From the NCBI GenBank assembly GCA_902461985.1, contig CABQAB010000034.1, positions 1 to 11,359 of the forward strand: a stretch of 11,359 bases of DNA, given 5' to 3'. The translations under genes and the position numbers were made by a program. The number at the start of each line of letters is the position of its first letter. Position 1 is the first letter of the stretch. Of this stretch, positions 243-11,359 are shown piece after piece. Source of the DNA: an uncultured Bacteroidales bacterium (GTDB lineage Bacteria > Bacteroidota > Bacteroidia > Bacteroidales > UBA932). Under the pieces are notes generated by a model. The model was not told the DNA's origin, did no database searches, and saw only the letters and a program-made list of their open reading frames with translations.

Positions 243-1787
243 TTAGTCTGCAAGTATTTTTGCGTAACCAGGATTCTGTTCAAGGTTGTTGTTGACCCTC
301 ATCTCGTATGAAGGAATCGGCCAGCAAAGGTGATAATCTCCGGCTTCGAGAGAGCGTCCGACATAACCCGCTGTCTCATTGAGAACATGACTATCCAATG
401 CACCGGCCTGGCCTTCACGGCCTGCGTGTCCTACGCCCCAGCGTTTGAGACATTCAAGTCTGAGTCCGTCGCCTACAGTCTCCCTGAACCATTCTTTCTG
501 GATTGCCTCCATGGTAATCGCGGCCGTTGGAGTAGCCTTTCTGCTGCTCTGCAGTGTCGTAAGTTTGGACATGGCCTTGATCTTCTGATTGTTCATAAAG
601 GCTGCTTCTGCTGCGACAAGGTACATTTCCGGGAGTGCGAAAGGTTTCGGGGCTATGTGCCCGTCAATTATTCCGCTTGCATTGAGCGCGGTGTTGCCCT
701 TGTACTTGGTGAATACGAAGAACTTGCCCTGATAATATGAACCGCTGCTCTTGAACGGAATCTTTGAAGTGTCGTCGAACCAGTTGCGCCTGCGCCAGTC
801 TCCGCTCTCGTAAGAATCAATGAGTGTCTTGGATGGAAGATAGCCCGAAGCGAAAGAATCTTTTGTAGGCGAATTGGCATCTGTACCGTAGTTTATATAT
901 TCATCGTAACTACCGGCAAGTTCGGTAAGGGAAACGGGGAGCATCATGATAGCCTCTTTGCCTGCATCCTCGAACCATTCAGCCTGGAACTCGGCCTCAG
1001 TTTCGCAAAGGGCATAGGCAGAGTTGGTGATTACTGTGTCTGCGTATTCGTATGCTTTTCCATAGTTGCGTGTGTCAAGATTCCAGTTGGCATACATACA
1101 GCGCAGCACATCTACATTGAAGTATTCCGATGCTGCTTTGCCGGCTTCACCCTTGAGAATCACATAGGCATCGTCAAGGTCTTTCTTAATCTGGTTATAT
1201 ACAGCCTCGACAGTAGCCCTTGCCGGCTTTTCGTTCTGGTCGTACACAGTTACGAGAGGCACGCAGAGGTCAGTCGATGCAGTTGCCGGGTCGTATGCTT
1301 TTCCATAACGGCGTGCAAGTTGGAGATATGCCCATGCGCGTGCTGATTTTGCATCAGCCATGAGGTAGTTGAGGTCATCGCCATAGATTTCACGATCGAG
1401 AGTTGACTTCGGAACCTGGTCTATCACAATGTTGAAATTCTTTATGGCCGTGTACATATTCTGCCAGAATCCTGTAATGTAGTCATCTGAAGAAGTGAAT
1501 GAGCCGTCAAGACGATGCAATGCGCCGTAACGGTTTCCGAATTCGGTGGTGGCGTTGAAAGCATCGAACATTATGTCGTCAGACATTTTGTATGTCCCGG
1601 CCTGCATGGTCCTGAAGTTGGAATATATCCCCAAGTCATAACTTTCAATATCTTCCGGAGTCTGGATCATCGGAATATTTTCATCATATACCAGCGATGT
1701 GTCCGGATACAGGTCCAGATTGCATGCGACCACCATTCCGAGGGCAAGAGAAACGGATAATATCTTTAATATATTGTTGTTCATCAT
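243..1787 (-). CDS. SusD/RagB-family outer-membrane nutrient-binding lipoprotein
   Basis: This 514-residue protein is the cell-surface lid and ligand-capture partner of the SusC channel encoded just upstream. Residues 1-21 are a signal peptide ending in the lipobox VVAC, so Cys22 is lipidated. CNLDLYPDTS follows, matching the usual start of mature SusD proteins. The helix around 141-162 (YLMADAKSARAWAYLQLARR) is the family's TPR-like segment, normally A-x-A-R-hydrophobic-LRA-x-x-Y. The C-terminal block has the family's GLRLECLKRWG (441-451), PIPSYEMRVN (490-499) and QNPGY (504-508). Length is normal for SusD (about 500-550). The gene starts 17 nt after the SusC stop. A second in-frame ATG at 1784 is an equally possible start. 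The ligand (glycan or peptide) cannot be told from sequence. Confidence 0.95.
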   Translation of the reverse strand: MMNNNILKILSVSLALGMVVACNLDLYPDTSLVYDENIPMIQTPEDIESYDLGIYSNFRTMQAGTYKMSDDIMFDAFNATTEFGNRYGALHRLDGSFTSSDDYITGFWQNMYTAIKNFNIVIDQVPKSTLDREIYGDDLNYLMADAKSARAWAYLQLARRYGKAYDPATASTDLCVPLVTVYDQNEKPARATVEAVYNQIKKDLDDAYVILKGEAGKAASEYFNVDVLRCMYANWNLDTRNYGKAYEYADTVITNSAYALCETEAEFQAEWFEDAGKEAIMMLPVSLTELAGSYDEYINYGTDANSPTKDSFASGYLPSKTLIDSYESGDWRRRNWFDDTSKIPFKSSGSYYQGKFFVFTKYKGNTALNASGIIDGHIAPKPFALPEMYLVAAEAAFMNNQKIKAMSKLTTLQSSRKATPTAAITMEAIQKEWFRETVGDGLRLECLKRWGVGHAGREGQAGALDSHVLNETAGYVGRSLEAGDYHLCWPIPSYEMRVNNNLEQNPGYAKILAD

Positions 1788-1804: not shown

Positions 1805-4804
1805 TTAGAACTTGATTTCAATGCCACCGAGTACCTGAAGGGTGTTTCCAGGGATGCCGTATGTGAGGTTTCCGTCAATTTCAGGGTCTATACCCGTATA
1901 GTTGGTAAGAGTCCAGAGGTTACGTCCGGTGATTGAGAACATTACTCCTTTCACTACTTTCTGTGTTCCGAGAGCCTTCTGTGAAAGGGAATATCCAACA
2001 GTAAGGTTCTTGAGCCTTAGGAAGGATGCGTTCTCCAGCAGATGAGTGTCAAATTCCATATTGTAGCCCTTTGACCAGTCTGGGTATTCTGCATCGGTAT
2101 TGTATGGTGTCCAGAAGTCAGAAACGGACTTAATCTGGTTGTCACCTACGTTTCTGTTAGGATTGGCATAGAAATATGCGTCATTATTGATGAGATACTT
2201 TCCTGCGAAGTAAGAAAAGTCCACATTGAACGAAAGTCCTCTCCAGTGGCCACGAAGTCCGAAACCTCCGCTGACAGGCTCGTGTCTTCTGATTCCGGTA
2301 TTCTGGGTAAGAGCTTCCTCATTATACTCTTTGGTAATCCGTTGAGGATCCATAGTGCAGACATTCTTATCCTCTCCCGGGAGATACCAGGTAGGTGCTC
2401 CGTCTTCAGGATCTACTCCGGCAAAAATCGGGAAATAGTACATTACCGGGCTGCCGACCACATATCCCAAACCGGTGTTGGCGACTTCCCAGCTTGTTCT
2501 GCCGTCGAATAGTTCAGTCACCTTTTCAGCATTGTAATTGAATGTGGTGTTGAAATTCAGTCCGTAGTCCCTGCCTTTGAGTATGTCTACTCCCAAAGTG
2601 ATGTCTATACCGGTATTACACATTGCTCCAACATTGGCAGTAACGCTGCTGAAACCTGTCGTATATGGCTGAGGCACTGACATGAGCATATCGCTTGTCA
2701 CTCTGTTGTAAACCGAAATTTCCGCATCAAGCCTGTCCCAGAAACGGGCGTCAATTGTTGTCGTGAAAAGTCTCTGTTTCTCCCATGTGAGACTTTCGTT
2801 TGAAGGGCTTGACAAATACAGGTAAGGTGAACCATTATATGTTGAGGTGCTGGATGATATGGTTCCCAGATGTTCATAATTAGGTATATTTGCGTTACCC
2901 TGCGTTCCGTAGCTCAGCTTGAGCGAAAGTCTGTCAACAGGCCTGATGTCCTTGAGCCAGCTTTCATTCTTGAGATTCCACATGGCCCCGACCGCCCAGA
3001 ACGGTGCCCATCTGTTGTTCTTTCCGAAACGGGATGAAGCATCGTAACGGACTGTTGCATCTATGAAATACCTTTCGGCATAACTGTAGTCAGCATGTCC
3101 GAAGAATGAGAGGAAAGCATATTCAGTTTTATTCTGGCTCATGGTTCTGGTGCTGGCAAGACCATTCTGAACATTCATAAGACGGTCGTCAGTCTGTCCC
3201 ATAGAACTGCTTGAGTTGTATTTGTACAGATATTTTATGCCTTCCTGCCCGAGAAGCACTGAGAAATCGTGTCCATTCTTGAAAGAATGGCTGTATTCGA
3301 GAGTATTGGTGATGGTGTTCCGTGTAGTATAATAATCTCCTAAAAGTCTCTGGCTATTGTCTGTGAATGATGCTGAAGGAAGGATTCTTGCGTCACGCTG
3401 GTCAATATAAGAATCAGTGCCGACACGTGATGCCAGGATAAGGCCTTTATAGAGTTCTATTTCAAGGAACGCAGATCCGTTGATTCCGTATCTGTTATAG
3501 TTATCAAAGAACTTTTCGGAACGGTAGTGCTGGTTCGTCAGTCCGTTTGGATAGGACTCGGGATATTCCTTGCCTGTGTTAGGGTCGATTGCAGGGAAGA
3601 GCGGGTTGATCAAATAGGACAATCCGCCTTCGGTATATGCTCCGTCGAGTCCTCCGGAATTGTTCCAGTTACCATTCTGGCGGTCTTCAGTAAGGTATCC
3701 AGTGAAATTCACTCCCGCCTTGAGCCAGTCGGTAGGACGGGCCTGGATGTTTGAACGGAGAGTATAACGGTCATAATAGTTTCCGATCGTGTTTCCGTCC
3801 TGATGGAACTGGGAAGCACTGAACATATATGCCACCTTGTTGCTTCCGCCTTCGATGGTCACGTCATTCTGGCACTGTAGACCGTGAAGATTCTGGAAAT
3901 AATGATGCCATTTCGTGTCTGCAGTGTATCCTTTGGAATAATAAGTGTCTTCTATAGCCTGAGGAGTCATGATGCCGGCACGAATCCAGAACGAAGTCAG
4001 TTCGCTGCTGTTCATCATGTTCTCGTAGAACTGGAGGTTCGAGTGAGTGCTGACGCCCCACTGGGTATGCACTGTCACCGTGGCCTTTTCATTGAAGTGT
4101 CCTCCTTTAGTGGTGACGTACACGATACCGTTGGCTCCGAGGGAGCCATAGATTGATGTTGAAGACGCATCCTTAAGCACGGATATGGACAGAATGTCAT
4201 TAGGGTTGAGGTTCATGACCATTGTGCTGTTTGACTGTATGCCGTCGATAATAAACAACGGCTCGCTGCTGCTTGACAATGAACCCACACCGTGAATTTT
4301 CATGCTTATTGAGTTATCTCCCGCAACGCCACCCGTAGAGAGTACCTGCATACCTGCAACCTGTCCCTGGAGACGGTCGAGAGGCGACTGGGAAGCGGAG
4401 TTCTTCACTATGTCGGCTTTTACGGTAGTGACTGCACCGACTTTGTTTCCAATGCGCTTTGACGAGCCATACCCGATTTTCACGGCTGCATCCAGAAACT
4501 CGGCGTCCGAGTCGAGTCTTACGTTGATTGTTTTCTTGCCGTTCACGCTTACTTCTGTCGTTTCGTAGCCGATGGACGAAAATGACAGAACTGCATTTGA
4601 GGCTACATTGATTGAATAGTGTCCGTCAATGTCGGTAGCCACTCCATATGCCGTAGCTGCGCCTTTCACGATGACACTGGCTGCCGGCACCGGCTCTCCG
4701 GTGGCGGAATCCGTGACTGTACCCGTTACAGTCAGGGTTTGCGCGTAGGCTGACAAGCCTAAAGCCGCAAACATGGTGGTGAGAAGAAGTTTGATTTTCC
4801 TCAT
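1805..4804 (-). CDS. SusC/RagA-family TonB-dependent outer-membrane transporter (left operon)
   Basis: This 999-residue protein forms the 22-stranded outer-membrane barrel that imports the ligand captured by its SusD, powered by TonB-ExbBD. Residues 1-21 are a Sec signal peptide (MRKIKLLLTT, cleavage after AYA). Residues 23-105 are a carboxypeptidase-regulatory-like beta-sandwich (VTGTVTDSATGEPVPAASV, FSSIGYETTEV). Residues 116-235 are the plug, with LFIIDGIQ and the SusC signature SIYGSLGANGIVYVTTKGG. The remainder is barrel, ending in GGIEIKF with the terminal Phe expected of outer-membrane barrels. The TonB-box region (DAAVKIGYG, 105-113) departs from the common EVVVTG form. There is no N-terminal STN domain, so signalling to an anti-sigma factor is not expected. 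It is the first gene of the left operon, preceded by a leader of about 220-240 nt that starts at the putative invertible promoter. Confidence 0.96.
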   Translation of the reverse strand: MRKIKLLLTTMFAALGLSAYAQTLTVTGTVTDSATGEPVPAASVIVKGAATAYGVATDIDGHYSINVASNAVLSFSSIGYETTEVSVNGKKTINVRLDSDAEFLDAAVKIGYGSSKRIGNKVGAVTTVKADIVKNSASQSPLDRLQGQVAGMQVLSTGGVAGDNSISMKIHGVGSLSSSSEPLFIIDGIQSNSTMVMNLNPNDILSISVLKDASSTSIYGSLGANGIVYVTTKGGHFNEKATVTVHTQWGVSTHSNLQFYENMMNSSELTSFWIRAGIMTPQAIEDTYYSKGYTADTKWHHYFQNLHGLQCQNDVTIEGGSNKVAYMFSASQFHQDGNTIGNYYDRYTLRSNIQARPTDWLKAGVNFTGYLTEDRQNGNWNNSGGLDGAYTEGGLSYLINPLFPAIDPNTGKEYPESYPNGLTNQHYRSEKFFDNYNRYGINGSAFLEIELYKGLILASRVGTDSYIDQRDARILPSASFTDNSQRLLGDYYTTRNTITNTLEYSHSFKNGHDFSVLLGQEGIKYLYKYNSSSSMGQTDDRLMNVQNGLASTRTMSQNKTEYAFLSFFGHADYSYAERYFIDATVRYDASSRFGKNNRWAPFWAVGAMWNLKNESWLKDIRPVDRLSLKLSYGTQGNANIPNYEHLGTISSSTSTYNGSPYLYLSSPSNESLTWEKQRLFTTTIDARFWDRLDAEISVYNRVTSDMLMSVPQPYTTGFSSVTANVGAMCNTGIDITLGVDILKGRDYGLNFNTTFNYNAEKVTELFDGRTSWEVANTGLGYVVGSPVMYYFPIFAGVDPEDGAPTWYLPGEDKNVCTMDPQRITKEYNEEALTQNTGIRRHEPVSGGFGLRGHWRGLSFNVDFSYFAGKYLINNDAYFYANPNRNVGDNQIKSVSDFWTPYNTDAEYPDWSKGYNMEFDTHLLENASFLRLKNLTVGYSLSQKALGTQKVVKGVMFSITGRNLWTLTNYTGIDPEIDGNLTYGIPGNTLQVLGGIEIKF

Positions 4805-4858
4805 AGGTTTACCACTTTAAATTAAACTTATTATACCTTTTTGATGTTTTTCATTTTT

Positions 4859-4882
4859 GACCGCTCTGTCGCCGAGCCGGTC
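4859..4882 (-). promoter_or_regulatory. Strong hairpin in the leader of the left SusC
   Basis: The arms gaccgctc (4859-4866) and gagccggtc (4874-4882) pair over 8 bp with one bulged base, closing a 7-nt loop. It lies 54 bp upstream of the SusC start. On the minus strand it is followed by AAAAATG rather than a T run, so it does not look like an intrinsic terminator. A role in leader-RNA stability or translation is possible but not shown. Confidence 0.4.
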
Positions 4883-4912
4883 CTTCACCTTGAAAGACTG
4901 CCGTCCTGACAG

Positions 4913-4951
4913 TTTTTCCTACACTGCTTTTCCTATACTTTTTACACTACT
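4913..4951 (-). repeat. Three degenerate tandem repeats in the left leader
   Basis: On the plus strand the units are TTTTTCCTACACT (4913-4925), TTTTCCTATACT (4928-4939) and TTTTACACTACT (4940-4951), spaced about 12-15 bp. On the transcribed strand they read roughly AGTrTAGGAAAA. They lie between the putative promoter and the left SusC. Part of this array (4935-4949) is also found in the leader of the right operon. Repeated sites for a DNA- or RNA-binding regulator are one explanation; chance in a short AT-rich stretch is another. Confidence 0.4.
4935..4949 (-). promoter_or_regulatory. Leader element TAGTGT-N4-AGTAT, left copy
   Basis: On the minus strand this reads TAGTGT-AAAA-AGTAT. The right operon leader has TAGTGT-TTTT-AGTAT at 6041-6055, in the same orientation relative to its genes. 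Both copies lie outside the inverted repeats, so they stay with their own operon when the segment flips. This suggests a shared control signal, but the function is unknown. Confidence 0.35.
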
Positions 4952-4981
4952 CCCATCCACTCCGGCGGCCCTTTTCCCATT

Positions 4982-4993
4982 CAGTCCAGACTG
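4982..4993. promoter_or_regulatory. Perfect 12-bp palindrome CAGTC-CA-GACTG
   Basis: Two 5-bp arms flank a 2-bp centre, 28 bp outside the left inverted repeat and inside the left leader. The shape suits a small dimeric regulator or a short hairpin. A related half (AGACTGCCGT) recurs at 4895-4904. No protein can be assigned to it. Confidence 0.25.
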
Positions 4994-5021
4994 TCGTTTC
5001 AAGCACTGGAATTGTGTAGTT

Positions 5022-5043
5022 TTTAACGGGCGTTTTCGAGTGC
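5022..5043 (+). repeat. Left inverted repeat of the invertible segment (recombination site IR-L)
   Basis: This 22-bp site matches the reverse complement of 6005-6026 at 20 of 22 positions. Mismatches are at 5024 and 5039, and 14 bp (5025-5038) match perfectly. Within it is the palindrome AACG-GG-CGTT (5025-5034). A two-base non-palindromic centre flanked by symmetric arms is the form of serine-recombinase crossover sites, which are cut with a 2-nt stagger. The site lies between the left SusC leader and the invertase gene. Confidence 0.8.
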
Positions 5044-5052
5044 ATGGAATTG

Positions 5053-5084
5053 CAAAAATGAACATTTAATTTTAGAATTGCAAA
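5053..5084 (-). promoter_or_regulatory. Outward-facing Bacteroides-type promoter (TTTG-N20-CATTTTTG)
   Basis: On the minus strand the -33 box TTTG (5084-5081) is separated by 20 nt from CATTTTTG (5060-5053). The latter matches the Bacteroides -7 consensus TAnnTTTG at all defined positions but the first. Transcription would start near 5046, only a few bases inside the left inverted repeat, and run through it into the left SusC with a leader of about 240 nt. If the segment flips, the promoter would face the lipoprotein at 6090 with a leader of about 90 nt. Both boxes are followed by CAATTC, giving two copies of TTTGCAATTC 28 bp apart. Confidence 0.6.
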
Positions 5085-5196
5085 TCTTGTAAGTGCTGCA
5101 ATTCAATGAGTTAAAAATGTCATTTCCCAATATTTATAAAAATTGGTTATAATTTGTAAGTTAATGTAGCGTCATTCTTTCAATCTTAAATCAAAT

Positions 5197-5230
5197 GAAA
5201 GGTATTTGCCATTGGACAAATTTGTTCAAA
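5197..5230 (-). promoter_or_regulatory. Weaker candidate promoter inside the segment
   Basis: On the minus strand TTTG (5230-5227) lies 22 nt before TACCTTTC (5204-5197), which matches TAnnTTTG except at the last base. The spacing is slightly long. It points the same way as the promoter at 5053-5084 and lies just after the invertase terminator hairpin, so it could be a second, weaker outward promoter. Confidence 0.25.
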
Positions 5231-5244
5231 AAGTTGAAAATATT

Positions 5245-5265
5245 TTTCTCGAACGGTTTGAGAAA
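5245..5265 (-). terminator. Hairpin terminator downstream of the invertase (possibly bidirectional)
   Basis: The arms 5245-5254 and 5256-5265 (tttctcgaac / gtttgagaaa) are complementary apart from one position and form a tight stem. It begins 5 nt beyond the invertase stop codon. On the minus strand it is followed by the AT-rich AATATTTTC. On the plus strand it is followed by CTTTTTAATTG, so it may stop transcription from both sides. It would insulate the left SusC promoter from invertase read-through. Confidence 0.5.
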
Positions 5266-5269
5266 CTTT

Positions 5270-5884
5270 TTAATTGAGTTTTTCGAGTATATAATGGCAT
5301 TTTCTGCACTTTGCAAGGGTATTTCGATGCACACCGAACGATGCGGCAATAACAGTAATTGGGACTCCAGAAGCATGTATTTCCTCGATTCTTTCCCCGT
5401 TTTCGCATATTGTCCGGACTTTCTCGCTGCATCCTGAAGGCCTGCCAAGTTTGATCCCGACGGTTTTTCTGGCTGCCAGAGCCTCTTTCGTCCTCTGGGA
5501 AATAAGATTTCTTTCTATTTCGGCAGCCAGTGCGAAGGCAAACGCGATGATGCGGGAATTGATGCTGTCACTCAGATCGAAGTTGTCCTTGATTGTGTGG
5601 ATGCGGATGCCGTGCTGGGAGCAGTAGTTGAGTATGGACATTATCATCAGCATATTTCTGCCGAGCCGGGATATTTCGGTGGAGATTATCAAGTCGCCGG
5701 GCTTCATTTTCCGTATGAGCCTGCCAAGGCGGCGTTTTTCCCAGGGTACGGTGCCTGATACGGATTCTTCCACCCATTTGTTGATTTCCAATCCTTTGGA
5801 TTTACTGTAGTTTTTGATTTCGAACCGCTGACTCGCGGAGGTCTGCATCTCGGTGCTGACCCTGATGTAAGCATAAGTACACAT
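5270..5884 (-). CDS. Serine site-specific recombinase, DNA invertase (Hin/Mpi type)
   Basis: This 204-residue protein has the size and two-domain layout of small serine invertases. The catalytic domain opens with YAYIRVST, placing the nucleophile at Ser10 with Arg8 beside it. It continues with GDLIISTEISRLGRN (63-77), whose Arg73 and Arg76 correspond to the conserved active-site arginines of the resolvase/invertase family. The long dimer-interface helix contains AEIERNLISQRT (121-132). The linker GIKLGRPSG (143-151) leads to a C-terminal helix-turn-helix domain (about 155-195) with ITVIAASFGVHRNTLAKCRK. These proteins cut both strands at a 2-bp centre via a covalent serine linkage and invert DNA between inverted sites. 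The gene lies inside such a pair of sites, so its likely target is its own flanks. All key residues are present, so it should be active. A transposon resolvase is less likely, because no transposase is nearby. Confidence 0.93.
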   Translation of the reverse strand: MCTYAYIRVSTEMQTSASQRFEIKNYSKSKGLEINKWVEESVSGTVPWEKRRLGRLIRKMKPGDLIISTEISRLGRNMLMIMSILNYCSQHGIRIHTIKDNFDLSDSINSRIIAFAFALAAEIERNLISQRTKEALAARKTVGIKLGRPSGCSEKVRTICENGERIEEIHASGVPITVIAASFGVHRNTLAKCRKCHYILEKLN

Positions 5885-5902
5885 AAGTAATTGATTTTTA
5901 TC

Positions 5903-5933
5903 TCAATATAATGTGCACCTCGAAAACGGCAAA
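5903..5933 (-). promoter_or_regulatory. Candidate promoter of the invertase gene
   Basis: On the minus strand TTTG (5933-5930) is followed after 19 nt by TATATTGA (5910-5903). This matches TAnnTTTG at four of six defined positions with correct spacing. The start point would be close to the invertase ATG at 5884. The third copy of the recombination-site arm (5915-5928) lies within the spacer, so invertase bound there could repress its own gene. Confidence 0.4.
5915..5928 (+). repeat. Third copy of the recombination-site arm (half site)
   Basis: The bases GCACCTCGAAAACG match the arm GCACC-CGAAAACG of the right site and, on the other strand, GCACT-CGAAAACG of the left site, apart from one inserted or changed base. 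The other half of the palindrome is missing (GGCAAAA follows), so it should bind but not recombine. It overlaps the putative invertase promoter. Confidence 0.45.
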
Positions 5934-6004
5934 ATCAGGAGACGCCTCCGCGATGCTACAGGGCCGCCGTTTCGTTCAGGAGAAATCCAAGTAAAACAAC
6001 CGCC

Positions 6005-6026
6005 GCACCCGAAAACGCCCGTTTAA
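6005..6026 (-). repeat. Right inverted repeat of the invertible segment (recombination site IR-R)
   Basis: This is the inverted partner of 5022-5043 (20 of 22 bp identical; 14 bp perfect at 6010-6023). It contains AACG-CC-CGTT (6014-6023), the same palindrome read from the other strand. It lies 63 bp upstream of the right operon's first start codon. No outward TTTG/TAnnTTTG promoter is visible just inside it, unlike at the left repeat. Confidence 0.8.
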
Positions 6027-6040
6027 TAGTGCAGCGGAGG

Positions 6041-6055
6041 TAGTGTTTTTAGTAT
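6041..6055 (+). promoter_or_regulatory. Leader element TAGTGT-N4-AGTAT, right copy
   Basis: TAGTGT-TTTT-AGTAT lies 15 bp outside the right inverted repeat and 34 bp before the lipoprotein ATG. It is preceded by GGAGG. The same element, with AAAA in the middle, occurs in the left leader at 4935-4949. The conservation across two otherwise different leaders is the only evidence of function. Confidence 0.35.
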
Positions 6056-6089
6056 TGAAATATCTATTCACAATTAATATAGTAGTGCT

Positions 6090-7547
6090 ATGAAAAAAAT
6101 TGCTTTATTTTCGATGCCGCTTGTTGCCCTGCTTTTTGCTGCAGGCTGCACAAAAGAACCGGTTACACCCGAACCGAATCCGGACAACAAACCAGATGAA
6201 CCGGCAGTGGTCACATTTACCGCACAAGCCACAAACGTACTTGAGAACGGTGTCTCAATTTCCATCAGCCATGACGGAACTGAAAACGATACTTATTACG
6301 GATTCTATACTACGGATCTGACTTCAGAAGCAGGAACTCTTATCGAAGCGCAGGTCGCTGAACTCAAAGAAAGCGTGTCAGACCTGACTCAGGTGCTCTG
6401 GAAGGGAAAGACCCTCGTTCGTCCTGTCATGAACCTGACTCCGGCTACGGACTACAAATACATTGTGTTCGGCGTCAAGGCTGACGGTACAGTCTACGGA
6501 AAAGAAGGAGTGGCAGAGTTCAAGACGCTTGAAACAGAGGAATTGAAATTTGAAGTCAACCCTGCCTGGACGGTAAGTTATGACGGCAAGAGTGTTCACA
6601 ATACATACGGTCTCGTGGATGTCATATCAGTAGCCACCACAAGCACAGAAGGATATATCATCGATGTCATCGATGTTGAAAGTTACGAAACTGATGGTAT
6701 CGAGGCGTCTTTCCTTGCAAGCATAGATTACATACAGTCTATCATCGATCAGGATGTAAACAACGGTTATGAGACCACTTGGGACGATATGCTCTACACT
6801 GAGAATGCTCAGGAATATTACAACCTCAAGGACGGAGTAAGCTATTATGCAGTTGCGATAGGAGTCAGCAGCGAAGGCGAGCCTACCGGCAAATATGCCA
6901 TAACCGAAGCCTTCACCGCAGATCCTGCACCTGAGGCAAGCGAGGACTACAGCAAGTGGCTTGGCATGTGGATCATTACTGACCAGAACGACCAGCAGTA
7001 TCCTATGATTTTGAGCATGTTTGATCCAGACCATACCTATGCAGTCACTCTGGTAGACGGCTTTTATGATGCACGTGCCTCTTACAATGATGACAAGACT
7101 ATGTCTTTCAGGTCAGGAACAGTCCGCGAGAACGTTGATTTCGGCCAATATGGAACAGGTAGCGTAGGATTCTACGGATCAGGTCCTATCGGCGCGGATG
7201 TATATACCATTACAGGTACATACGCTATCTGCACTATGACTCTTGACGAGAGCGGAAACAGTGCGGCCGGAGACCCTACTCCTGTCACCTTGAATCTGAC
7301 CAACGGAGAAACATGTACGCTTACCGCCATGACTTATGTGGGCGTTGTCGGAAATTCTCTCTTGAGTTGGCCTACAACGATGATTCCGGAATACGCACTT
7401 CCGTTGAAGTCCATGACAAGATACGAGGAATCGGCATCACTCAGAGTCAAGAACCCTGTTATAGCCGCTGCCAAGAGACACCGCGCTTCGTTCAAGAGCC
7501 TTGACGTAACTGCAGCCGAACTTCAGAACGCAGTTTCAGCCAAATAA
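6090..7547 (+). CDS. Beta-rich surface lipoprotein, first gene of the right operon
   Basis: This is a 485-residue secreted lipoprotein. Residues 1-19 form a signal peptide (MKKIALFSMPLVALLFAAG) with Cys20 in the lipobox AAGC. A Pro/Glu/Asp-rich linker (21-39) follows, typical of surface-exposed Bacteroidota lipoproteins. Residues 40-147 look like a fibronectin-III-type domain: strands VTFTAQAT and VSISISHDG, then LTPATDYKYIVFGVKADGTV and a closing EFKTLE. Residues 152-276 look like a second such unit, with LKDGVSYYAVAIGV near its end. Residues 287 to about 445, beginning YSKWLGMWIITDQ, form a third beta-rich region of the kind found at the C-terminus of many Bacteroidota lipoproteins. A basic Ala/Lys-rich tail ends the protein. 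No catalytic motif is seen. Its place directly before SusC/SusD suggests a surface-binding or accessory role, but it resembles no named gene I recognise. Confidence 0.9.
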   Translation: MKKIALFSMPLVALLFAAGCTKEPVTPEPNPDNKPDEPAVVTFTAQATNVLENGVSISISHDGTENDTYYGFYTTDLTSEAGTLIEAQVAELKESVSDLTQVLWKGKTLVRPVMNLTPATDYKYIVFGVKADGTVYGKEGVAEFKTLETEELKFEVNPAWTVSYDGKSVHNTYGLVDVISVATTSTEGYIIDVIDVESYETDGIEASFLASIDYIQSIIDQDVNNGYETTWDDMLYTENAQEYYNLKDGVSYYAVAIGVSSEGEPTGKYAITEAFTADPAPEASEDYSKWLGMWIITDQNDQQYPMILSMFDPDHTYAVTLVDGFYDARASYNDDKTMSFRSGTVRENVDFGQYGTGSVGFYGSGPIGADVYTITGTYAICTMTLDESGNSAAGDPTPVTLNLTNGETCTLTAMTYVGVVGNSLLSWPTTMIPEYALPLKSMTRYEESASLRVKNPVIAAAKRHRASFKSLDVTAAELQNAVSAK

Positions 7548-7576
7548 TTTCCGCTGAACTTTTCAGCATCAAACTG

Positions 7577-7615
7577 TAAACGGCTTTTGTGCGATAATGA
7601 CACGAAGGCCGTTTA
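7577..7615 (+). promoter_or_regulatory. Long intercistronic hairpin between lipoprotein and SusC
   Basis: Arms 7577-7591 and 7601-7615 pair over 15 bp with two G-U wobbles and a 9-nt loop (cgataatga). The bases after it are ATAAAACTC, without a T run, so it is a poor intrinsic terminator. It may trim or stabilise the mRNA and set different levels for the lipoprotein and the downstream SusC/SusD. Partial termination cannot be excluded. Confidence 0.55.
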
Positions 7616-7633
7616 TAAAACTCTAAATTGCTT

Positions 7634-10600
7634 ATGAGGAAATTCAAATATTTTTTTACTGCTCTGATGCTGTGCGTTTCAGTCCTGGTCAATGCCCAGA
7701 ACATTTCCGTCAGCGGAATTGTTACCGATGCATTGACGAAGGACCCTGTGCCATTCGCAGGCATTCAGATCAAGGGTACAACGACAGGAGGCATGACCGA
7801 CGGCGACGGCTACTACAGCCTGAATGTGCCTGCCGATGCTGTACTGGTCTTTTCTTCAATCGGCTACAAGGCAAAGGAAGTGGCTGTGGCCGGCAGGAAA
7901 ATCTGCAATGCCGAACTTGAGGCCGATGCGGAAATGCTTGAAGGCGTGGTCGTTACAGGTATGCAGAAGATGGACAAGCGTCTGTTCACCGGTTCGACGG
8001 CGAGAGTGGACGGAGACAAGGCAAAACTCGACGGTGTAGCTGAAGTCGGCCGTGCCCTCGAAGGCCGTGCTTCCGGAGTCTCCGTGCAGAATGTGTCCGG
8101 TACGTTCGGAACTGCGCCGAAAATCCGTGTGCGTGGTGCCACATCCATCTACGGTTCGTCCAAGCCGCTGTGGGTTGTGGACGGAGTCATTATGGAGGAT
8201 GTAGTGGAGGTGGATGCCGACCAGCTTTCATCAGGTGATGCTACAACCCTTATCAGTTCTGCAATCGCAGGTCTGAATGCAGACGACATAGAGAGTTTCC
8301 AGATTCTCAAGGACGGTTCAGCGACGTCAATCTACGGAGCGCGTGCGATGGCCGGAGTCATAGTGGTGACGACCAAGAAAGGTACCGCCGGACATAGCCG
8401 TATCAGCTACACCGGAGAGTTCACCACGAGGCTCAAACCGAGCTACAACAATTTCAACATCATGAACTCCCAGGAGCAGATGAGCGTCTACCGTGAAATG
8501 GAAAAGAAAGGCTGGCTTAACTACGCCGAACTTGCCAATGCTTCAGAGAGCGGCGTCTACGGCAAGATGTACAACCTGATTTCCGCAGGCCAGCTCGAGA
8601 ATACGGAGACCGCACGCAACGAATATCTCCGCCAGGCTGAATACCGCAACACGGACTGGTTCGATCTGCTGTTCTCCAATGCGATGATGCACAACCATTC
8701 CGTCAGCATATCTTCCGGAACGGACAAGTCGCAGTATTACGCCTCGATCAGTGCCATGGCCGATCCGGGCTGGACGAAACAGAGCAAAGTGAACCGCTAT
8801 ACGGCCAATCTCAATGCTTCCTACAATATACTGAGGTGGCTGTCCCTCAATATGATAGCAAATGCTTCCTACCGTCAGCAGAGAGCTCCCGGAACATTGT
8901 CTTCAGACATTGATGCAGTGAGCGGAGAGGTTAAGAGGGACTTCGACATAAATCCGTATTCATATGCCCTGAACACTTCGAGAGTGCTTGACCCTGATGA
9001 ATACTACACGAGGAACTATGCCGCATTCAACATTTTCCATGAACTGGAAAACAACTACATGGATTTTGACGTCACTGACCTGAAATTTCAGGGCGAGTTC
9101 AAAATCAAGCCTGTCACCGGTCTTGAGATATCCGTCCTCGGTGCGGCAAAATATTCATCAAGCGCACAGCAGCACCATATTACTGACTATTCCAACCAGG
9201 CCATAGCCTACAGGACCTATCCGACAACCACCATCAGGGACAGGAATCCGTTCCTTTACACGGATCCTGACAATCCATACGCAATTCCTATCAGCGTGCT
9301 TCCTGACGGAGGAATCTATGAGAGAACTGATTTCAGAATGTTCTCATACGACTTCCGCGCCAGCGCGGCATACAACAAGGAGTTCAGCGGCGGACACATA
9401 ATGAACCTTTTCGGAGGTATGGAAATCAACTCCGTGGAGCGTTCCCAGACATGGTTCAGGGGATGGGGTATGCAGTATTCCATGGGAGAGATTCCGAAAT
9501 ATGCATATCAGGTGTTCAAGAAGGGTGCGGAAGAAGGCAGCAACTATTATTCTATGGTCAATGCCCTCACGAGAAGCGTTGCGTTCTTCGCCAACGGAAC
9601 TTATTCCTACCAGGGCAGGTACACCATAAACGGGACTATCCGCTACGAAGGCACCAACAAACTCGGAAAGACGACTTCCGCCCGCTGGCTTCCTACGTGG
9701 AACGTGTCCGGAGCATGGAATATACATGAAGAATCATGGTTCAAGCCGCTTTATCCGGCATTCTCATTCTTCTCGCTCAAGGCTTCGTATTCGCTGACGG
9801 CTGACAGAGGTCCCGCATCCGTGACCAACTCCAGGGTTGTGATAAGCAGTGAAACGCCGTGGAGACCGAGCACCGGAGACCAGGAGTCAGCTCTCTATGT
9901 ATCTGATCTTGAAAACGGAGCTCTGACTTACGAGAAGAAGCACGAGGTGAACGTGGGCACTGCAATGGGTTTCGTGGACAACAGAATCAATCTTGAGTTC
10001 GACTGGTACAAGCGCAACAACTATGACCTCATCGGCCCTATCAATACTCAGGGTATAGGCGGCCAGATTCTCAAATACGGAAACGTGGCTTCCATGTCTT
10101 CTTCAGGAGTTGAATTGACACTGTCCACTGTGAACATCGACACGAAGGATTTCAGGTGGACTACGGATTTCATATATTCCCATGCCACGAACAAGGTGAC
10201 TTCCCTCGAAAATATGCAGAGAGTCATCGACCTCGTGTCGGGAAGCGGTTTCGCGCTTGAAGGCTATCCTGTCCGTTCGATTTTCTCGATTCCGTTCAAG
10301 GGGCTTGACGCGCAGGGAATCCCTACGTTCCTTGACCAGAACGGCAACGTTACGTCCACAGGCATCTATTTCCAGGAAAGGGACAACATCGACTTCCTGG
10401 AATATTCCGGAAGTTCCGACCCTACCGATTTCGGAAGCTTCGGAAATACTTTCCAGTGGAAAGGGTTCAAGCTGAATGTGTTCTTCACCTATTCATTTGG
10501 CAATGTCGTACGTCTTGATCCTGTGTTCTCACGTTCCTACAGCGACATGACTGCTATGCCGAGGGAGTTCAAGAACCGCTGGGCAGTGCCTGGAGATGAG

Positions 10601-10936
10601 AATGTCACCACGATACCGGTCATTGCTTCTTCCGAGCAGAACAGGAAGATCGCGCAGCTCAACTATGCCTACAATGCCTACAACTATTCCACCGAGCGCA
10701 TAGCGAAAGGGGATTTCATCCGTCTCAAGGAAATTTCCCTGAGTTATGACTTCCCTAAAAAGTGGATCGAGGCTATGAAGATGAGTGCGCTCTCGCTCAA
10801 GGTGCAGGCGACAAATCTTGCACTTCTCTATGCGGACAAGAAGCTGAACGGTCAGGATCCGGAGTTTTTCAACACCGGAGGAGTCGCTACCCCTATGCCT
10901 AAGCAGTTCACCATAACTTTGAGAATAGGATTCTAA
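7634..10936 (+). CDS. SusC/RagA-family TonB-dependent outer-membrane transporter (right operon)
   Basis: This 1100-residue transporter is the second SusC of the window. I place the start at the ATG at 7634 (MRKFKYFFTA, a normal signal peptide); the in-frame TTG at 7628 only adds two residues. The signal peptide ends at VNA-Q22. Residues 24-105 form the carboxypeptidase-regulatory-like domain (VSGIVTDALTKDPVPFAG, FSSIGYKAKEV). EGVVVTG (103-109) is a clear TonB-box-like segment. The plug spans about 115-250, with LWVVDGVI and the SusC signature SIYGARAMAGVIVVTTKKG. The barrel ends with ITLRIGF, a terminal Phe. No STN domain is present. It is about 100 residues longer than the left SusC and clearly diverged from it, so the two should not import the same ligand. 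The SusD start follows 11 nt after its stop. Confidence 0.96.
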   Translation: MRKFKYFFTALMLCVSVLVNAQNISVSGIVTDALTKDPVPFAGIQIKGTTTGGMTDGDGYYSLNVPADAVLVFSSIGYKAKEVAVAGRKICNAELEADAEMLEGVVVTGMQKMDKRLFTGSTARVDGDKAKLDGVAEVGRALEGRASGVSVQNVSGTFGTAPKIRVRGATSIYGSSKPLWVVDGVIMEDVVEVDADQLSSGDATTLISSAIAGLNADDIESFQILKDGSATSIYGARAMAGVIVVTTKKGTAGHSRISYTGEFTTRLKPSYNNFNIMNSQEQMSVYREMEKKGWLNYAELANASESGVYGKMYNLISAGQLENTETARNEYLRQAEYRNTDWFDLLFSNAMMHNHSVSISSGTDKSQYYASISAMADPGWTKQSKVNRYTANLNASYNILRWLSLNMIANASYRQQRAPGTLSSDIDAVSGEVKRDFDINPYSYALNTSRVLDPDEYYTRNYAAFNIFHELENNYMDFDVTDLKFQGEFKIKPVTGLEISVLGAAKYSSSAQQHHITDYSNQAIAYRTYPTTTIRDRNPFLYTDPDNPYAIPISVLPDGGIYERTDFRMFSYDFRASAAYNKEFSGGHIMNLFGGMEINSVERSQTWFRGWGMQYSMGEIPKYAYQVFKKGAEEGSNYYSMVNALTRSVAFFANGTYSYQGRYTINGTIRYEGTNKLGKTTSARWLPTWNVSGAWNIHEESWFKPLYPAFSFFSLKASYSLTADRGPASVTNSRVVISSETPWRPSTGDQESALYVSDLENGALTYEKKHEVNVGTAMGFVDNRINLEFDWYKRNNYDLIGPINTQGIGGQILKYGNVASMSSSGVELTLSTVNIDTKDFRWTTDFIYSHATNKVTSLENMQRVIDLVSGSGFALEGYPVRSIFSIPFKGLDAQGIPTFLDQNGNVTSTGIYFQERDNIDFLEYSGSSDPTDFGSFGNTFQWKGFKLNVFFTYSFGNVVRLDPVFSRSYSDMTAMPREFKNRWAVPGDENVTTIPVIASSEQNRKIAQLNYAYNAYNYSTERIAKGDFIRLKEISLSYDFPKKWIEAMKMSALSLKVQATNLALLYADKKLNGQDPEFFNTGGVATPMPKQFTITLRIGF

Positions 10937-10947
10937 TTTAGAAGTGA

Positions 10948-11359
10948 ATGAATATGAAACCAAAGAATCTGAAATATATATTTGCAGTCCCGTCTGTCCT
11001 CCTTGCCGCGGTCTCATGCAACAAATGGCTGGACGTGATGCCGGACAACCGGGCGGAGATAGACACTGAAGAAAAAGTCGCGAAACTCCTCGTCAGCGCC
11101 TATCCCGTGACTGACTATATCGTTCTGTCTGACTATTCATCAGACAATGTGGATGACTTCGGGGCTGACCATCCATACTCCGACCGTTTCCTTGAACAGA
11201 TGTACGAATGGAAAACCGTGACCGAGGCCGACAATGAAGATCCCGGCATGGTGTGGAGTGGATGCTATATGGCCATAGCCAATGCGAACCAGGCTCTGCA
11301 GGCAATCGAAGACATGGGGAATCCGCAGTCTCTGCAGCCTTACAAAGGAGAGGCGCTAC
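10948..11359 (+). CDS. SusD/RagB-family lipoprotein (N-terminal part; runs off right edge)
   Basis: The frame is open from the ATG at 10948 to the window end (137 codons). A second in-frame ATG at 10954 could also be the start. The signal peptide ends in the lipobox AVSC with Cys24. The mature protein begins CNKWLDVMPDNRAEIDTEE, the standard SusD opening (C-x-x-x-LD-x-x-P), followed by VAKLLVSAYP. Further on, MVWSGCYMAIANANQALQAI is the family's conserved helix, equivalent to W-x-x-x-Y-x-x-I-x-x-x-N in other SusD proteins. It forms the pair with the SusC ending 11 nt upstream and would act as that transporter's lid. The C-terminal part is outside the window. Confidence 0.93.
   Translation, partial: MNMKPKNLKYIFAVPSVLLAAVSCNKWLDVMPDNRAEIDTEEKVAKLLVSAYPVTDYIVLSDYSSDNVDDFGADHPYSDRFLEQMYEWKTVTEADNEDPGMVWSGCYMAIANANQALQAIEDMGNPQSLQPYKGEAL

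Follow-up and report, generated by a model that had tools for sequence, protein, structure and literature searches.

SusC/SusD pairs determine which glycans a gut Bacteroidota cell imports. The locus analysed here raises the question of whether a cell could choose between two such pairs by turning around a piece of DNA that carries its own recombinase. The window, i.e. the whole stretch analysed, is a contig of 11,359 bp in which a 1.3-kb gap separates two divergent SusC/SusD operons; in this gap, an inverted repeat encloses a segment of ~1 kb with an intact serine invertase gene and a predicted outward promoter. The features of the window are:

243-1787, minus strand: left SusD (PF14322, PF07980)
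1805-4804, minus strand: left SusC (TIGR04056, 663 bits)
5022-5043, plus strand: left arm of the inverted repeat, 20 of 22 bp matching the other arm; core TAACG-GG-CGTTT at 5024-5035
5084-5053, minus strand: predicted outward promoter, TTTG-N20-TAnnTTTG, 1 mismatch of 10 (motif match), reading over the left arm to the left SusC
5270-5884, minus strand: Mpi-like small serine recombinase (invertase), 204 aa, within the segment (PF00239, 112 bits; NF009949, 247 bits)
5904-5933, minus strand: weak candidate promoter of the invertase itself, 2 mismatches (motif match), inside the segment
6005-6026, minus strand: right arm of the inverted repeat, 20 of 22 bp matching the other arm; core AAACG-GG-CGTTT at 6013-6024
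6090-7547, plus strand: putative lipoprotein, 485 aa, opening the right operon (lipobox-like N terminus in the sequence)
7628-10936, plus strand: right SusC (TIGR04056, 626 bits)
10948-11358, plus strand: right SusD, truncated by the contig end (PF14322)

The original prediction placed the segment in the gap between two divergent SusC/SusD operons. Both operons were found by profile matches; the right one, however, begins with the gene for the 485-aa lipoprotein, and the right SusC is therefore the second gene of its operon. The lipoprotein has no Pfam or NCBIfam match, and the left operon opens with a gene of a different family. The seven closest DNA relatives of the right SusC among 400 genomes are all in loci with the same type of cassette. 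Compared with the ORFs of the other 63 loci described below, the lipoprotein gave a single weak match (30% over 74 residues, in L007).

The inverted repeat was confirmed as described: 5022-5043 and the reverse complement of 6005-6026 are identical at 20 of 22 positions, including the 14-bp perfect stretch AACGGGCGTTTTCG at 5025-5038 (plus strand) and 6010-6023 (minus strand). With a minimum distance of 300 bp between the arms, the top-scoring inverted repeat of the intergenic stretch 4805-6089 reached 16, while 200 dinucleotide shuffles gave a mean of 9.7 and a maximum of 12. The core of the repeat is the dyad AAACG-NN-CGTTT, which the cores in the window match with 0 and 1 mismatch. Small serine invertases are characterised by inverted dyad sites with a matching asymmetric central dinucleotide, and the centres in the window are GG and GG. 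A direct repeat at 5267-5288 (77%) and an inner inverted pair at 5392-5405/5921-5934 were considered as extra sites and rejected, both being without the dyad core.

The gene inside the repeats had been described as a complete serine DNA invertase gene, and the ORF at 5270-5884 (minus strand) is indeed intact and matches PF00239 with 112 bits. The protein contains R8, S10 and RLGR, which we take to be the active-site serine and arginine residues of the resolvase catalytic domain, as found in small serine DNA invertases; moreover, DNA-invertase and gamma-delta resolvase chains are among its best matches in a PDB search. The best curated NCBIfam model is the Mpi-family model NF009949, to which the protein scores 247.1 bits, i.e. 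under the curated cut-off of 272. We conclude that the invertase is a relative of the Mpi family and not a formal member. As in Hin-type systems, its ORF lies between its own sites at 5024-5035 and 6013-6024. In two related loci, L022 and L033, in which the available flank contains no SusC, a META domain is found next to the invertase: in L022 (5995-7101), the invertase frame runs on into a META domain to give 368 aa, and in L033, a META-domain protein begins 12 bp past the invertase.

An outward promoter had also been placed in the cassette, and a Bacteroidota-type match at 5084-5053 (minus strand), facing the left SusC, agrees with this. The window contains eight motif matches with at most 1 mismatch on both strands in total, and a second match of equal quality with a 22-base spacer lies at 5230-5197; a single match is, thus, not rare, and the match at 5084-5053 gains weight because its position is conserved in relatives. 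Toward the right operon, no promoter match with at most 2 mismatches was found in 5885-6089 or 7400-7640. An inverton consists of a promoter-like element between inverted repeats, facing a gene that it can drive, and the predicted promoter at 5084-5053 has this placement. In the assembled orientation, we predict that the left SusC is ON and that the right operon, with the lipoprotein gene as its first gene, is OFF.

We propose that the Mpi-like serine invertase encoded in the segment would pair the two inverted AAACG-GG-CGTTT sites and exchange strands at the asymmetric central GG, and that the ~1-kb segment, with the invertase gene and its one outward promoter, would thereby turn around. In the assembled orientation, the promoter would drive the left SusC/SusD operon and the right lipoprotein/SusC/SusD operon would be without a promoter; after inversion, the right operon would be on and the left operon off. 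From the sequence, it is very probable that the cassette is a self-contained, dedicated either/or switch of two SusC/SusD operons that is flipped by its own invertase. We infer that the enzyme acts on these sites, that the orientation sets expression and that flipping occurs within populations.

A pattern scan of species genomes gave 63 loci, mostly from Bacteroidales including Candidatus Cryptobacteroides; in the genus of one relative, 84 of 300 genomes have a homolog of the invertase at E <= 1e-40 and 47 have one at E <= 1e-57. Out of 133 loci, 3 were dropped for having no invertase match and 47 of the remaining 130 as duplicates with identical invertase DNA. After additions and de-duplication, 83 loci were left, window included, and 64 of these have at least 54% invertase identity; the promoter, contig-end, SusC-family, two-SusC and control-bin counts were made on loci reaching this identity. 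In the following, U and D denote the sides upstream and downstream of the invertase gene, respectively.

The two-SusC count covers 43 loci, window included, with at least 54% identity and at least 2.6 kb on both sides, 21 of the 64 loci having been dropped for short flanks. An outward SusC is present on both sides in 38 of the 43 loci, on the D side only in four, on the U side only in none, and on neither side in one. When the first 64 loci (the initial 63 and the window) were scored for SusC within 1.5 kb, SusC was present on both sides and always outward in 32, restricted to the D side in 13 and to the U side in 5, and absent from both in 14; the window counts as D only at this distance because its lipoprotein gene intervenes. 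In none of these 64 loci does the nearest SusC within 1.5 kb point inward. The four one-SusC loci of the first count all have their SusC on the D side, which is the side faced by the promoter; in three, a promoter with 1 mismatch occupies the usual position, while L024 has only a match with 2 mismatches elsewhere.

Repeats missing from relatives that retain the invertase would have spoken against a switch. Allowing at most 2 mismatches, 33 of the 38 two-SusC loci and none of the five others have both cores (103 of 1031 control bins contain such a core by chance); with at most 1 mismatch, the counts are 25 of 38 versus 0 of 5 (Fisher P 0.009). Under looser matching, a pair with matched centres emerged in four of the five remaining two-SusC loci (the exception is L110), and the five loci without two SusC yielded no comparable pair. 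In total, the architecture recurs: divergent SusC/SusD operons flank a promoter cassette that encodes its own invertase.

Several further observations were made in the flanks of related loci. A leader ahead of susC with AGTGTAGTGTA and TCAATATTTATGTTTAAC recurs in several of them, e.g. in L014, L016, L035 and L036. Distant homologs with 44-52% identity (L048, L052, L054-L057 and L059-L061), found in Helicobacter, Treponema, Alphaproteobacteria and Opitutales contigs, have no SusC in the flank; in L052, a matched AC/AC site pair surrounds the gene.

Serine recombinases require identical central bases for religation; agreement of the central bases between the two arms is, therefore, what is expected of working sites. 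Cores with at most 1 mismatch lie within 400 bp of the gene in 37 of 60 loci for the U side (control bins, 6 of 524) and in 44 of 58 for the D side (control bins, 5 of 507). The two central bases vary by species, and among the 33 of the 83 loci that have both cores, they are equal between the arms in 32 (12 GG, 12 AG, 5 GT, 2 GA and 1 AC), whereas shuffled pairing gave a mean of 9.8 and a maximum of 20 concordant loci. The sole discordant locus, L057, is alphaproteobacterial with 44% invertase identity. Among loci with at least 54% identity, the centres are concordant in 30 of 30, two loci with tied cores being concordant either way. Pairs with a TC centre show up under looser matching.

Some loci contain cores beyond a simple pair. 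On the U side of L038, cores lie 373 and 30 bp upstream of the gene, so that the locus has a third core, and the sequence between these two resembles the D arm of another locus; L019, L026 and L047 also have a second upstream core. A lone exact core with the centre AC lies near a SusC relative at L131:4883, in a locus without a close invertase match, and is possibly the target of another recombinase. At L130:108, a core lies 107 bp from the start of a contig that carries a relative of the window's right SusC, which looks as though the assembly had been interrupted within a cassette of this type. For the B. fragilis Mpi site, a primer listed in the part of PMC10939037 that was consulted hints at a half-site similar to the core and is only a lead.

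The predicted promoter has a fixed place in the relatives. The element TTTG-N19/20-TAnnTTTG points outward, with the start of its -7 box about 24-29 bp inward of the D core. Of 54 D ends, window included, 32 have it with no more than 1 mismatch, and in 31 of these 32 it is at one position; i.e. 30 of the 53 other loci have a match at the same place as the window. The remaining 22 D ends have two or more promoter mismatches. Four comparison regions gave a match in 3 of 40 cases (deeper in the cassette), 2 of 53 (beyond the D end), 1 of 46 (beyond the U end) and 0 of 47 (within the U end). Thus, the promoter is found at one end of the cassette only, the D end, pointing out.

The original prediction also led to a comparison of relatives for the opposite orientation, and the flanking SusC families were found to switch sides between species, all side comparisons being between species, with one genome per species. 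With SusC families defined by linkage at 60% identity or more, a family of 13 members has 6 on the U side and 7 on the D side, and a family of 11 that includes the window's right SusC has 6 and 5; families of nine (7 U, 2 D) and six (3 U, 3 D) members and smaller ones also occur on both sides, and two families of four members occur on one side only. The side of a SusC does not follow the SusC tree but changes about as often as shuffled labels: on the trees of the four largest families, 5 changes compare with 4.6 after shuffling, 4 with a mean of 3.9, 2 with about 2, and 3 with 2.3. In the window's family, all 4 changes are forced by well-supported branches. Pairs of loci swapped on both sides are L005/L025, L017/L110 and L030/L105, with the caveats that the sequence of L105 is partial and that L110 is without a matched site pair; L006/L016, L007/L112 and L040/L041 keep their orientation on both sides, and L004/L105 is ambiguous. 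Breakpoints were compared in loci having a core at no more than 1 mismatch and flanks of more than 1500 bases, and for matches of at least 600 bases and at least 70%. The evidence from breakpoints is limited: the 27 opposite-side DNA matches begin within 9 bp of the core in 5 cases, beyond this distance on the outside in 21 and 159 bp inside in one (L027/L038). Of the 33 same-side matches, 6 extend 49-213 bp into the cassette, and this contrast is in the expected direction and not significant (P 0.12). Side changes between species may come partly from exchange of operons.

Assemblers yield contig breaks and contigs of ~1 kb when a segment exists in two orientations. In 52 loci, contigs end within 400 bp of the gene nine times versus 1.6 times expected, and 2, 0, 2 and 2 times in the next 400-bp bins. 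Moreover, the longest contig is 900-1199 bp in 27 of 119 listed invertase clusters versus 7 of 120 listed RuvA clusters (P 1.8e-4), each list holding the best 120 of about 8000 scored clusters and RuvA from one relative being a single, imperfect control. The core-to-core length has a median of 904 bp and a range of 834-1254 bp in 30 loci. The contig ends and the ~1-kb contigs are a hint of both orientations within populations; the breaks could alternatively come from the repeated susC leaders.

Could the segment flip without the enzyme, by homologous recombination between similar inverted susC 5' ends, with the invertase as a bystander? Several loci share a long inverted similarity of their susC 5' ends (e.g. 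354 bp in L036); however, the match of the species-variable centres in 32 of 33 loci agrees with site-specific serine recombination, and homologous recombination has no need of it, five opposite-side matches begin within 9 bp of the core, and the window's own first genes come from different families. We regard this explanation as very improbable. The wide differences in flanking SusC families between species would also fit a mobile element that mainly inserts beside susC genes and carries the promoter as cargo. Against this, 20 genomes chosen from the loci have one close copy each (five of them also have a distant homolog), viral contigs, when scanned, yielded a single distant relative (44%), two outward SusC are present in 38 of 43 loci, and the nearest SusC is inward in none of 64; that the cassette is mainly such an element is hardly to be expected.

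Since the closest curated family is Mpi, the invertase might instead be a master enzyme like that of B. fragilis, which flips many promoters in trans and lies here by chance. In the genomes of 15 relatives, however, the exact pattern WAACGDKCGTTT occurs 47 times versus 42 times for a reversed control, a count blind to mismatched cores and to the centres GA, TC and AC. Of these 47 occurrences, 20 are at the cassette, and both sites are exact in nine genomes; the cassette cores of five genomes escape the pattern because they differ from it. Inverted pairs of exact cores within 2 kb, i.e. leaving aside mismatched cores, were found only at the cassette, and a role as a master enzyme appears quite improbable. 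It is somewhat easier to imagine, yet still unlikely, that the cassette is locked in this genome, as a decayed or rarely active switch that merely supplies the promoter of the left operon. In favour of such a state, four relatives have a D-side SusC only and no detectable second site, and no conserved promoter of the invertase was found across the relatives; against it, the window keeps both cores (0 and 1 mismatch) with the GG/GG centres, the promoter, an ORF in which R8, S10 and RLGR are present, and an outward operon on the other side as well.

The reading as a self-encoded phase switch, with which the original prediction started, is supported by the recurrent architecture, the co-varying sites, the one fixed outward promoter and the SusC families that change sides. 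What the sequences document is the anatomy, the co-variation of the sites, the position of the promoter, the change of side between species and the pairing of exact cores only at the cassette in the relatives' genomes. As many related uncultured gut bacteria share the arrangement, its most likely role is to let a cell express either of the two receptor systems. More tentatively, and with the odds somewhat against it, the cassette may be a two-slot exchange platform of Cryptobacteroides and kin, with one switch per genome, in which SusC/SusD operons of many families enter and leave the slots over evolution and the species-specific centre (GG, AG, GT, GA, AC, and TC under looser matching) acts as a private code against cross-recombination.

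If true, a dedicated either/or switch would leave a clonal population of these uncultured bacteria with cells of two feeding types. Its fixed promoter, 12-bp core and two slots render it readily testable with long reads; in addition, the different central dinucleotides represent a natural collection of serine invertase sites, possibly without cross-reaction among them.

Among known systems, the segment inverted by Hin in the Salmonella flagellar phase switch contains an outward promoter, and switches of the Hin type have a recombinational enhancer bound by Fis; Tsr0667 is a tyrosine recombinase. The available passages of PMC5903667 describe Hin as encoded inside the segment that it inverts and name Mpi as a master enzyme. 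The cassette shares with Hin a small serine invertase inside its own segment and an outward promoter; it differs in having a receptor operon beyond each end, so that each orientation has a target, and in an enzyme that is nearest to Mpi. According to the passages of PMC4747536 consulted, Mpi of B. fragilis inverts 13 regions, and shufflon-type inversions at three SusC/SusD clusters, as well as at nine other regions, are due to Tsr0667. Mpi belongs to the curated protein family closest to the invertase and is likewise a serine recombinase inverting promoters in Bacteroidota, whereas here the sites surround the invertase gene and no other inverted exact-core pair was found in the 15 relatives' genomes. 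With Tsr0667, as portrayed in those passages, the cassette shares the variation of SusC/SusD outer-membrane proteins through DNA inversion; in contrast to multiple shufflon inversions by another kind of invertase, one segment, one serine enzyme and one promoter are present here. In the sections of PMC11892184 consulted, TonB receptor and SusD genes are found near invertons, and invertase genes near invertons are generally non-regulatable. Like the cassette, such gut invertons have a promoter enclosed by short inverted repeats in the neighbourhood of TonB receptor and SusD genes, and an invertase inside a two-operon switch is not among the cases that these sections describe. In titles, the beginnings of abstracts and passages of the literature, a scope that did not extend to the primary Mpi, Tsr0667 and PhaseFinder papers, we recognised no description of this arrangement. 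In total, the Hin-like layout and the Mpi-like enzyme are known in kind, and one promoter that would serve either of two receptor operons is the cassette's own feature.
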